From NCBI GenBank assembly GCA_947461635.1, contig CANHMH010000003.1, positions 1-49,287 on the forward strand: a stretch of 49,287 nt of DNA. Reading direction: 5' to 3'. This stretch comes from Flavobacteriales bacterium. Its GTDB lineage: Bacteria > Bacteroidota > Bacteroidia > Flavobacteriales_D > Crocinitomicaceae. The notes beneath the pieces were generated by a model. The model worked only from the letters and a program-made list of their open reading frames with translations, was not told the origin of the DNA and did no database searches. Both the position numbers and the translations under genes were made by a program. Positions 30,147-45,568 of the stretch are shown piece by piece. Every line of letters starts with the position of its first letter. The stretch's first letter is position 1.

Positions 30147-31267
30147 GAAATTAAATTTGATAGTTGCTTACCAACAGATGCGCCGATTGCAACACCCATT
30201 CCTCCCATACGAACACCGAAAGCAACGTTTTTGTTCATTTTTTGAACAATTGGTTTTTTTTCGGACCCGACAGCCATGATTCCAGACCATGCATAATCGA
30301 TTTCAAATGGTGTATTTGGAAGAATGATTTCTTTGAGGTAATGTCTTAATTTTTCTTGAATGAGTTCCGTTGTGTCAAATTCTGTCGTCCTTTCTCCAAG
30401 AAAGTCTAAGTTTCTACCTCCGCCAAATAAAATTCGAGCACCAATATTGCGAAAATAGTAGTATCCAGCTTCCATGTGAAAGGTGCCCTTAATGGTTAAG
30501 TTAGGAATTTCTTTGGTAATGAGAACTTGCGCTCGAGCTGGCTGAATATCCGATAAAAATTCTTTCGCAAAGGCATTTGTACAGACTAAAAGATTCGCAG
30601 ATTTTAGCCTTCCCATGGATGTTGCGATTTCGACACTTGTATCACTCGAATCAAAAGAAAGTACATTTACACCGAAAAGGATTTGAATCCCTTGAATGGA
30701 GCAGGATCGCTGTAATTCTACAATTAATTTCCCTGTGTGTATAGCTCCCTCCAAACGATTGTAATATGCTGTTCTTATTCCTTTGAAACCAGATTCCAAG
30801 TGCTTTGTTTTGTCCTCTGTATATACCAATTTCTCGTTGGTGATTTCACTTAGTTTTTCATTCAAATAATCGATGAAATCCGGTGACAAGGGTTCTTCCT
30901 CATTTCTGATGATGTCCCATGAGCCACATGCATCGTATTCAATTTGAGTTTGATCAACGAGTTCGAATAATTCTCTTAGTCCATCTAAACGCATAGAAAC
31001 GGTATCCCAGACGCTGTTGTCGTTCATTTTACTTAGGTCATCTCTCAATTCAGTTGGACTACCAAAGCAGGTAAATCCGGCGTTTTTGGTGCTTGCGCCT
31101 GTAGGTAGGTATCCGCGTTCCAATATGACTATTTTCGCTTTTGGATGTGCTTTTCGAAGGTGTAAAGCTGTGCTTAAACCAACGATTCCAGCACCAATGA
31201 TTGTAAAATCATTCCCTTCGGTGTAAATTGATCGTTCCCAGTAACTTAAATTCGAAAAAGGAATCAT
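30143..31267 (-). CDS. FAD-dependent amino-acid oxidase-like protein (DAO family)
   Basis: The 374-residue protein is a DAO-family flavoenzyme. It has the dinucleotide fold GAGIVG at residues 25-30, ILERGYLPTGASTKNAGF for FAD ribose and flavin contact, and a late segment GVRMGGMGVAIGASVG that closes over FAD. Relatives include glycine oxidase, sarcosine oxidase and D-amino-acid dehydrogenase. The SxKNAGF segment suggests primary or secondary amine oxidation, but the substrate cannot be named. There is no signal peptide. It is coupled to the DUF2452 gene downstream through a GTGA overlap. Confidence 0.85.
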   Translation of the reverse strand: MIPFSNLSYWERSIYTEGNDFTIIGAGIVGLSTALHLRKAHPKAKIVILERGYLPTGASTKNAGFTCFGSPTELRDDLSKMNDNSVWDTVSMRLDGLRELFELVDQTQIEYDACGSWDIIRNEEEPLSPDFIDYLNEKLSEITNEKLVYTEDKTKHLESGFKGIRTAYYNRLEGAIHTGKLIVELQRSCSIQGIQILFGVNVLSFDSSDTSVEIATSMGRLKSANLLVCTNAFAKEFLSDIQPARAQVLITKEIPNLTIKGTFHMEAGYYYFRNIGARILFGGGRNLDFLGERTTEFDTTELIQEKLRHYLKEIILPNTPFEIDYAWSGIMAVGSEKKPIVQKMNKNVAFGVRMGGMGVAIGASVGKQLSNLIS

Positions 31268-43847: not shown

Positions 43848-44459
43848 CTAATATTCTATATCCAAGTTGAACAAGTTTTTCAAAGTATGCAAATTTGGAT
43901 TTTTTCGAGCAAGTGCTGAAAATTTATCTTTTCCCGTTAAAAATTTTGTTTCTTTTTCCGGTTCGTTACTCATGGAAAGTTGGATCTCTACATGGTAATT
44001 TTGTAAACTCTTGCGCATGAACTCAATGAATCCCATAAGTTCAGCCTGAATGTAGTCCATTTGCACTTGGTTGTCTACAACAATCCCCAAGACTTCTTCA
44101 CTGATTAAAACGGGATCTCTTTTAATTAAAGCATTGTAGAACGTTTCAAGTCCATTTTCCTTTACAACGTATGCATATTGTTTCCAAAACATTTTGACGT
44201 GCTCAATGCTAAATCCTTCGCGTGGTAAATCATCTAAATTCCCTGGTTGTTGGGATTCTTTGATTTTTTCAACAGATTCTTTTATAGATAGATGTCTTGT
44301 TTGAATAACTCCTTGCGGACTCGTTAATATTTTGGTTTCTTCCACCTTTTCTGGTGCAGTACTCACTGAACTTGCTGGTTTGTTTACAGGTGCAGTTGCT
44401 GTTGATTTTCGAAGTGTTTGTTTTGGAGATGGAAGAATATCAATTCTATCCGTCAGTCC
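43848..44459 (-). CDS. dnaX: DnaX tau-specific C-terminal region, reached by -1 frameshift
   Basis: From GGA at 44459 this frame is open and continues the DnaX protein: GLTDRIDILPSPKQTLRKST, a Pro/Ala/Ser linker, then 172 residues ending in LFNLDIEY. A database start would be GTG 44366, but that lies within the linker with no ribosome site. The folded part (FSIEHVKMFWKQYAYVVKENGLETFYNAL and later) resembles the tau C-terminal region of Bacteroidota DnaX, which contacts the polymerase core and DnaB. It is in the -1 frame relative to the upstream ORF, with no stop between. A -1 slip at 44465-44459 would give a 573-residue tau. Alternative explanations are a missing base in the assembly or a true mutation. 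Confidence 0.75.
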   Translation of the reverse strand, partial: GLTDRIDILPSPKQTLRKSTATAPVNKPASSVSTAPEKVEETKILTSPQGVIQTRHLSIKESVEKIKESQQPGNLDDLPREGFSIEHVKMFWKQYAYVVKENGLETFYNALIKRDPVLISEEVLGIVVDNQVQMDYIQAELMGFIEFMRKSLQNYHVEIQLSMSNEPEKETKFLTGKDKFSALARKNPNLHTLKNLFNLDIEY

Positions 44460-44469
44460 TTTTTTTTTT
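44431..44469 (-). promoter_or_regulatory. Predicted programmed frameshift element in dnaX
   Basis: On the minus strand ten A (44469-44460) and a G (44459) form the zero-frame codons GAA AAA AAA AAG. They hold the heptamer A-AAA-AAG, the same as in E. coli dnaX. The zero-frame stop TGA is one codon later. A 7-nt spacer (GACTGAC) leads to a hairpin, GGA(T)AGAAT / ATTCTTCC with loop TGAT (44451-44431): eight base pairs and one bulge. Spacing suits -1 frameshifting. No strong upstream Shine-Dalgarno-like stimulator was seen. Confidence 0.65.
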
Positions 44470-45568
44470 CAGACTCTTGTTTTAAGGAACAGAGTTGCAT
44501 GAGCGCTACTTCGATCAGTAGGCGTTGATTTTTCGAAGATTTATAGTCGACATCCGTCTTGCTTAAAATATTCAAGGCTTTCATGATTCGAAGCGCTTCG
44601 ATTTCTTTCGATTGTTCAATAAATCGTTGACGAACTGTTTCAGGAACATCCAATAAGTTAGCTGTTCGAGCATCCTTACAGACCAATAAATTGCGTAAAT
44701 GTTCTGCTAAACCAACGACGAAATGATGTCCATCGAATCCTTTTTCGTAAATGTCATTCAAAATCAATAGTGCAGTAGAAATATCTTCCTTTTCTGCTGC
44801 ATCAACAACTTTGAAGTAATATTCGTAATCAAGAATATTTAAGTTATCTAGGACATTTTTGTAAGTAAGTGTTGTTCCAGCAAATGTGACAATTTGATCA
44901 AAAATAGAAAGGGCATCTCTCAATGCGCCATCTGCTTTCATCGCGATTTGATGCAAGGCTTCAGGATCAGCTGAAACACCTTCTTTCGTGGCAATTTGAG
45001 CTAAATGATCAGCAATATCTTTGACGCGAATCCGACTAAAATCGAATATTTGACAGCGTGAAAGAATCGTTGGAATAATTTTATGTTTCTCAGTAGTTGC
45101 CAAGATGAAAATGGCATGTTTTGGTGGCTCTTCAAGTGTTTTCAGAAATGCATTAAAGGCACTATTCGATAACATGTGAACCTCATCAATGATGTATATT
45201 TTGTGTGTACCTAATTGCGGTGCAATGCGCACTTGGTCAATTAAACTACGTATGTCATCAACGGAGTTGTTTGAAGCAGCATCTAGCTCGTAGATATTGA
45301 GCGAGTTTCCAGTGTGAAAGGACAAACATGAATCACATTGGTCACATGCTTCTATTTGTTCGGTTGGATTAAAACAATTGATTGTTTTGGCTAAAATTCG
45401 AGCGGTGGTTGTTTTTCCTACACCACGTGATCCACAAAATAAAAATGCTTGTGCTAAATGTTCACTTTTGATTGCATTCTTAAGCGTGTTCGTAATCGTA
45501 TGCTGTCCAACAACCGTATCAAAGGTTTGTGGACGATATTTGCGGGCGGAAACGACAAAATCACTCAT
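44453..45568 (-). CDS. dnaX: DNA polymerase III subunit gamma (zero-frame DnaX product)
   Basis: DnaX is the ATPase of the clamp loader. The 371-residue zero-frame product contains domains I-III: Walker A GSRGVGKT (46-53), the zinc site with Cys65, Cys75, Cys78 and Cys81, IYIIDEVHML, and the SRC sensor TILSRCQIF. It ends ESEKKKD right after the slippery A10-G run, so it equals a gamma-length protein. The tau-specific part follows in the -1 frame. On the minus strand TATATTTG ends 4 nt before the ATG, implying a leaderless transcript. It heads the cluster dnaX, menE-like, J-domain gene, nth. Confidence 0.93.
   Translation of the reverse strand: MSDFVVSARKYRPQTFDTVVGQHTITNTLKNAIKSEHLAQAFLFCGSRGVGKTTTARILAKTINCFNPTEQIEACDQCDSCLSFHTGNSLNIYELDAASNNSVDDIRSLIDQVRIAPQLGTHKIYIIDEVHMLSNSAFNAFLKTLEEPPKHAIFILATTEKHKIIPTILSRCQIFDFSRIRVKDIADHLAQIATKEGVSADPEALHQIAMKADGALRDALSIFDQIVTFAGTTLTYKNVLDNLNILDYEYYFKVVDAAEKEDISTALLILNDIYEKGFDGHHFVVGLAEHLRNLLVCKDARTANLLDVPETVRQRFIEQSKEIEALRIMKALNILSKTDVDYKSSKNQRLLIEVALMQLCSLKQESEKKKD

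Follow-up and report, generated by a model that had tools for sequence, protein, structure and literature searches.

The dnaX gene in the window (the whole stretch of DNA analysed, 49,287 nucleotides) is split by a run of ten adenines (A10) at the border between its gamma-like part and its tau-specific tail, and both the split and the run are real and conserved. The gene is probably expressed by programmed transcriptional slippage on this run; we infer the slippage itself, the ratio of the products and both proteins from sequence. Across the class Bacteroidia, the length of the run is conserved and the frame of the tail is not. The parts of the gene are as follows.

44453..45568, minus strand: dnaX zero-frame open reading frame (ORF) encoding a gamma-like product of 371 amino acids with domains I–III (matches to AAA+ clamp loader profiles)
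44460..44469, minus strand: A10 slippery run, on the sense strand, at the gamma/tau border (from the sequence)
44453..44455, minus strand: zero-frame stop codon TGA ending gamma (from the sequence)
43848..44459, minus strand: −1-frame tail specific to tau (203 codons and a stop), with a putative linker and C-terminal domain (profile match, dN/dS and predicted fold)
44431..44451, minus strand: hairpin proposed in an initial annotation of this DNA; foldable in the window, not conserved as a whole and not counted as a working part

On the minus strand, positions 44470-44453 read GAA AAA AAA AAG GAC TGA: four bases past A10 comes the zero-frame TGA, which ends a gamma-like product of 371 amino acids and 41.7 kDa (45568-44453). 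In the −1 frame a TGA touches the 5′ side of the run, after which the frame is open as far as a TAG at 43850-43848, and a product of tau length would have 370 + 203 = 573 amino acids (64.7 kDa). As the zero and −1 frames overlap by just 13 nucleotides (nine As and GGAC), the change of frame must occur in or at the A-run; the third (+1) frame closes at a TAG a few codons past it. The initial annotation had described a dnaX split by A10 at this place, with a 371-residue gamma-like protein and 573 residues in total, and had held that the roles are reversed relative to Escherichia coli (gamma in the zero frame, tau recoded), making recoding necessary; sequence and frames agree with it.

The gamma-like product matches the Pfam families PF13177, PF22608 and PF12169 (239-367), and its domain III is followed directly by A10. 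Profile NF011531 matches it over positions 1-369 of 614 (E 2e-202; 674 bits, just below the whole-protein cut-off of 685) and TIGR02397 matches it above its own cut-off, while positions 473-613 of 614 in NF011531 are matched by the C-terminal 172 amino acids of the tail (E 1.3e-17). The tail is under constraint, with a median dN/dS of 0.05 (34 genus pairs). The predicted structure of the tail has a mean pLDDT of 77, about 60 up to residue 70 and above 90 at residues 81–160; it looks like a loose linker followed by a KH-like domain, the structure matches themselves being weak. Foldseek returned no match to the model at E ≤ 0.001; a second structure aligner matched DnaA domain I (Z 8.2, rmsd 2.7, 78 residues) and several KH-like folds (YphC/EngA, DciA, RbfA) at Z 6 to 7.5, with no tau chain among the matches listed. 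Domain V of E. coli tau has a KH-like fold, to which these predicted resemblances may weakly correspond. In sequence searches, Pfam gave no match in the window's tail and scattered single-member matches only when 49 members were scanned, and the best hit of a PDB sequence search with the tail profile had an E-value of 0.11.

Conservation was assessed in a 61-genome sample of the genus plus two further genus members, of which 57 yielded the region; no true dnaX match was found in six of the 61 sampled genomes (G012, G031, G034, G040, G047 and G050). The run is present in 57/57 (A10 in 54, A11 in three), as is a zero-frame stop three to four nucleotides past it, and the −1 tail was seen in 55 of the 57, the other two ending at a contig edge. 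Single-contig genomes of the family (G117, G184 and G194) carry A10 and a −1 tail as well. With 217 contigs and 83% completeness, the source genome is a fragmented draft, in which a mistake of assembly or sequencing, or a gene broken in this genome alone, might be suspected; the probability of either is negligible, because all 57 genus members keep A10 or A11 with a nearby stop; the single-contig genomes and the dN/dS of the tail also speak against it, and we rejected it. The initial annotation had called for a search for A10 and the split in close relatives, where a continuous dnaX free of A-runs throughout would point to error; both are kept, an outcome that favours its reading.

Runs of this length are scarce in the 2.38 Mb genome (83% complete), which holds only nine separate runs of ten or more As or Ts, several of them terminator tails or intergenic as judged by eye. 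Those clearly coding in the A sense lie in dnaX and in one other ORF, L191 (G000:C7, around 30313-30322), of 362 amino acids and glycosyltransferase-like by eye. At L196 (G000:C87, 9045-9054), A10 immediately precedes the start of an ORF that by eye resembles EF-Tu and lies behind a tRNA cluster; slippage or a leader effect is possible there.

We classified 265 genomes with one script. The window's order contributed 185, including 117 from its family; another 60 came from other orders of the class and 20 from other classes of the phylum. In split genes the run was sought in the ORF overlap, in single-ORF genes in a window of 300 nt placed where domain III ends. From the order-level matches (117), eight were left out (G127, G140, G144, G152, G176, G186, G187 and G198). 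Loci from other orders were picked at one or two per family from 113 matches, taking a long and a short ORF where both occurred, which inflates frame diversity and not run presence; those from other classes were mostly one per family, from 72 matches. L118 and L250, which end at contig edges before the run region, were counted as lacking the run. Named loci (L281-L360) overlap the genome set and were excluded from the 227/245, closure, 163/173 and 57/57 counts; they were included in the tree of 139 proteins and in the tallies of run length and of the base after the run.

A run of nine or more As lies at the gamma/tau border in 227/245 Bacteroidia genomes—174/185 in the window's order and 53/60 in other orders—and in 9/20 genomes of other classes; by family, it occurs in at least one genome in 55/62 Bacteroidia families and 6/17 others. 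Control windows (300 nt at most) taken from the order, class and outgroup sets had runs of this length in 0/258 loci upstream and in 2/256 downstream. The distribution of run lengths is two-peaked, with no 300-nt junction window having a longest A-run of exactly eight. Of the split genes, 163/173 carry at least A9 within the ORF overlap; the other ten are a run-less clade described below. The run is also absent from 11 of the 20 genomes of other classes and from six single-ORF Bacteroidia genomes (L213, L217, L224, L227, L243 and L245), which could represent losses, other routes to gamma or no gamma at all.

The frame of the tail behind this run varies. Counted by Bacteroidia families with the run, the tail lies in frame 0 in 41, in −1 in 21 and in +1 in seven, an order (0 > −1 > +1) that insertion-biased slippage would allow. 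Fourteen families (13 of them Bacteroidia) hold two or three frame states with the run kept, corresponding to at least 16 changes, and a tree of 139 proteins (14 without the run) gives at least 12 changes of tail frame. Close relatives differ in this way: Aquimarina mytili has frame 0 and Aquimarina sp. RZ0 has −1, both with A10; and one genus of the window's family includes L034 and L036 (A10 with a −1 tail) and L035 (A11 with frame 0). The genomes that combine frame 0 with the run include one of the window's own family.

Whichever frame the tail uses, the two others are soon closed. Off frames end within eight codons in 63/68 and 66/68 genes with the tail in frame 0, 142/144 and 134/144 with the tail in −1, and 18/19 and 18/19 with the tail in +1; in split genes, closure of gamma's frame is true by definition, so that the informative parts are the short distance and the third frame. 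Across all six combinations, closure is 93–99%, against 42–55% at random places in the same tails; counting a single locus for each family and frame gives 86–100%, against 42–60% in controls.

These patterns are what slippage would produce. RNA polymerase would slip on A10, where an rA:dT hybrid forms, and yield mRNAs with 10, 11, 12 or more As. Faithful A10 messages would give gamma (371 amino acids); messages with a net change of +1 (A11, A14 and so on) would bring the tail into register with gamma and yield tau (573 amino acids); and third-frame messages would stop at the TAG shortly past the run, again giving a product of gamma length. Across the class, genes with the tail in frame 0 would have tau as their default product and need slippage for gamma, as in Thermus, and those with the tail in −1 or +1 would have gamma as the default and need slippage for tau. 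The closure of both off frames fits slippage, which would feed all three frames, far better than a mechanism of the E. coli type.

That other mechanism, −1 programmed ribosomal frameshifting with roles reversed and a hairpin as aid, has points in its favour and is nevertheless quite improbable. The run holds both A_AAA_AAA and A_AAA_AAG, the latter in frame, either of which is usable for −1 ribosomal frameshifting. The only tRNA-Lys genes seen were Lys(UUU), as in E. coli, with three in the window's own genome (83% complete) and one in G117, among 30 loci scanned of 68 matches; and the tail is in −1 in 144/163 split genes with the run. But +1 tails, found in 19 genomes of seven families, are beyond the reach of a −1 shift, so an E. 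coli-type shift cannot yield tau in those genes. Moreover, a frame that such a shift would never enter is closed within eight codons in 63/68 genes (tail 0) and 134/144 (tail −1), against controls of 0.42 and 0.49, and G follows the run in just 143 of 299 loci (T in 91, C in 65; named loci included). Poor shifting at prfB and rare use of Shine-Dalgarno sequences in Flavobacterium johnsoniae, as described in the portion of PMC12421855 at hand, also argue against it. The −1 shift of the initial annotation is right about the DNA, where the tail does lie in −1; as a ribosomal reading it is less likely than polymerase slippage, the alternative offered in the same annotation, because relatives keep the run yet have the tail in any of the frames 0, −1 and +1.

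The downstream hairpin of the initial annotation has 13 pairs, can fold in the window and is kept in part in the genus, but as a conserved stimulator it is not supported: RNAalifold found no consensus pair among 30 members of the genus, and individual pairs of the window's hairpin are disrupted in as many as 23 of these 30. Folding energies downstream of the run in the genus range from −9.9 to 0. Pair retention in the same 30 members is 72% of pair cells, against 34–53% for slid versions of the hairpin, and tops 500/500 shuffles (mean 69.7%); six of the 13 pairs are changed on both sides somewhere in the genus set. As a needed stimulator the hairpin was therefore dropped for lack of a consensus structure, even though its pair counts exceed controls, and it is a fair prediction for the window's sequence alone. 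None of GGAG, GAGG, AGGA or AGGG, the Shine-Dalgarno (SD)-like motifs, occurs in the 14 nt upstream of the run in the window. An Rfam family for the dnaX frameshift element exists; an Rfam search with a limit of E = 10 found no dnaX element, its three matches being to snoRNA families and each short of the gathering score.

Over 157 loci, folding is slightly stronger near the run, where mean z is −0.60 downstream and −0.77 upstream (60 nt), than at a control position (−0.19); SD-like motifs, too, are more frequent upstream of the run than in controls (44/157 against 43/471). Such folding and motifs upstream of the run could act on polymerase or ribosome. Slippage might thus make most of the frame variants with ribosomes also shifting on the same run, a combination that is unlikely, if a little less so than ribosomal shifting by itself. 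Long A-runs (A10 to A12) are slippery for both machines and the enrichment of structure and SD-like motifs, weak as it is, would suit this account, but slippage alone explains the closure of both frames and the +1 tails, leaving the ribosomal part unneeded. A ribosomal share is possible because hairpin pairs exceed controls, folding is slightly stronger and SD-like motifs are commoner.

A further alternative dispenses with recoding: the tail would be translated from an internal start, with gamma and a free tau C-terminus as separate proteins. A run-less sister clade does have stop/start overlaps at the same spot, but over the first 117 tail columns of 54 genus sequences, ATG, GTG or TTG occurs in no column at above 30%; the tail protein is alike directly behind the run (KGLT...) with no conserved start; and the run would have no reason to be conserved. 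We therefore rejected an internal start in the window's genus, where it is very improbable.

The run-less dnaX occurs in sixteen genomes of the window's family, from genera g5, g9, g12, g21 and g23, at the following loci.

L108-L113, L115-L117, L119, L361-L373: run-less loci in which the gamma stop overlaps the tail frame

Genera g5 and g12 (thirteen genomes) form one clade with an SH-aLRT support of 100, beside run-bearing members supported at 97; the fork joining run-less and run-bearing groups is weak (45), and the outgroup rows all carry runs. At the junction, ATC stands four bases before the gamma stop in 13/16 (ATC-TTA-A and similar), and ATG or GTG lies at the stop in 3/16 (ATGA, GTGA, TAATG). 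L110, L112 and L113 have an AAGGAGG motif just upstream of the junction. Judged by its sequence, the junction seems to couple the translation of two separate proteins, with a rare ATC codon perhaps serving as the start, and a ribosomal shift is also possible; the run-less dnaX may be a permanent split with a non-standard start.

For the window's gene, slippage is the reading we prefer. A broader proposal, which we put forward tentatively, would see the A10 run as an ancient, class-wide and frame-blind switch of the Bacteroidia: since slippage would feed all frames, the frame of the tau half would be near-neutral and drift, with indels tolerated, and in the run-less clade the gene would be permanently divided, gamma and the tau C-terminus being translated separately by way of a stop/start overlap, in 13/16 with what appears to be an ATC start. 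If so, dnaX would tolerate single-nucleotide indels that are lethal to most other essential genes, and in a major bacterial class programmed polymerase slippage would be the regular, not the exceptional, way of decoding an essential replication gene. Plain reading of ORFs would then mislead, giving gamma only in split genes and tau only in single-ORF genes. The gene would offer a natural test of how coding frames drift once slippage removes the cost of indels, and would bear on the question of why such bacteria would rely on the polymerase for a task that E. coli leaves to the ribosome.

The window's gene belongs to a type that is already known. In the part of their article available to us, Antonov et al. 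(2013; PMC3711429) report 17 two-ORF dnaX genes from 12 genera in which tau needs recoding, nine of them with A10, suggest slippage for those nine, and state that no two-ORF dnaX was annotated as such in RefSeq. The window shares with these a zero-frame gamma that ends just past a poly-A run, a recoded tau and a tail in −1 at the DNA level, and is conserved and not a pseudogene; the Antonov set, in the same portion of the text, comprises split genes only, all −1, without single-ORF genes bearing the same run or +1 genes. In Thermus thermophilus, dnaX slips at A9 with an efficiency of about 50% (Larsen et al., 2000, as cited in passages of PMC5009743 and PMC1088944). The likeness lies in a sense-strand A-run of nine or more at the gamma/tau border, nearby stops in both off frames and two products from one gene; the differences are that Thermus has A9, tau in the zero frame and measured slippage, whereas the window has A10 and gamma in the zero frame, with slippage deduced. 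E. coli dnaX makes the same two products and has A_AAA_AAG, which lies in frame inside the window's run (PMC5009743 and PMC3711429, in part), but its roles are reversed, and in our material the conserved 3′ stem-loop (no consensus in the genus), the upstream SD-like motif (in the window) and an Rfam match are lacking and the tail frame moves. The relevant section of Atkins et al. (2016; PMC5009743) notes the reversed type and remarks that, with efficiencies near 50%, a single change can swap the roles. A poly-A tract frameshift in the dnaX of Blochmannia is likewise thought to be corrected by slippage (PMC3017870, in part); that gene, from an endosymbiont, has its frameshift within the part specific to tau, whereas the window's lies at the gamma/tau border and is conserved. 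The excerpt of PMC3971599 available lists dnaX as present in a flavobacterial endosymbiont and says nothing about a run. Within the limited set of literature searched, there was no report of a class-wide run in single-ORF genes, of +1 genes, of closure of both off frames or of drift of the tail frame. It is this class-wide, frame-blind conservation that is new here, and it is of more interest than the type to which the window's gene belongs.
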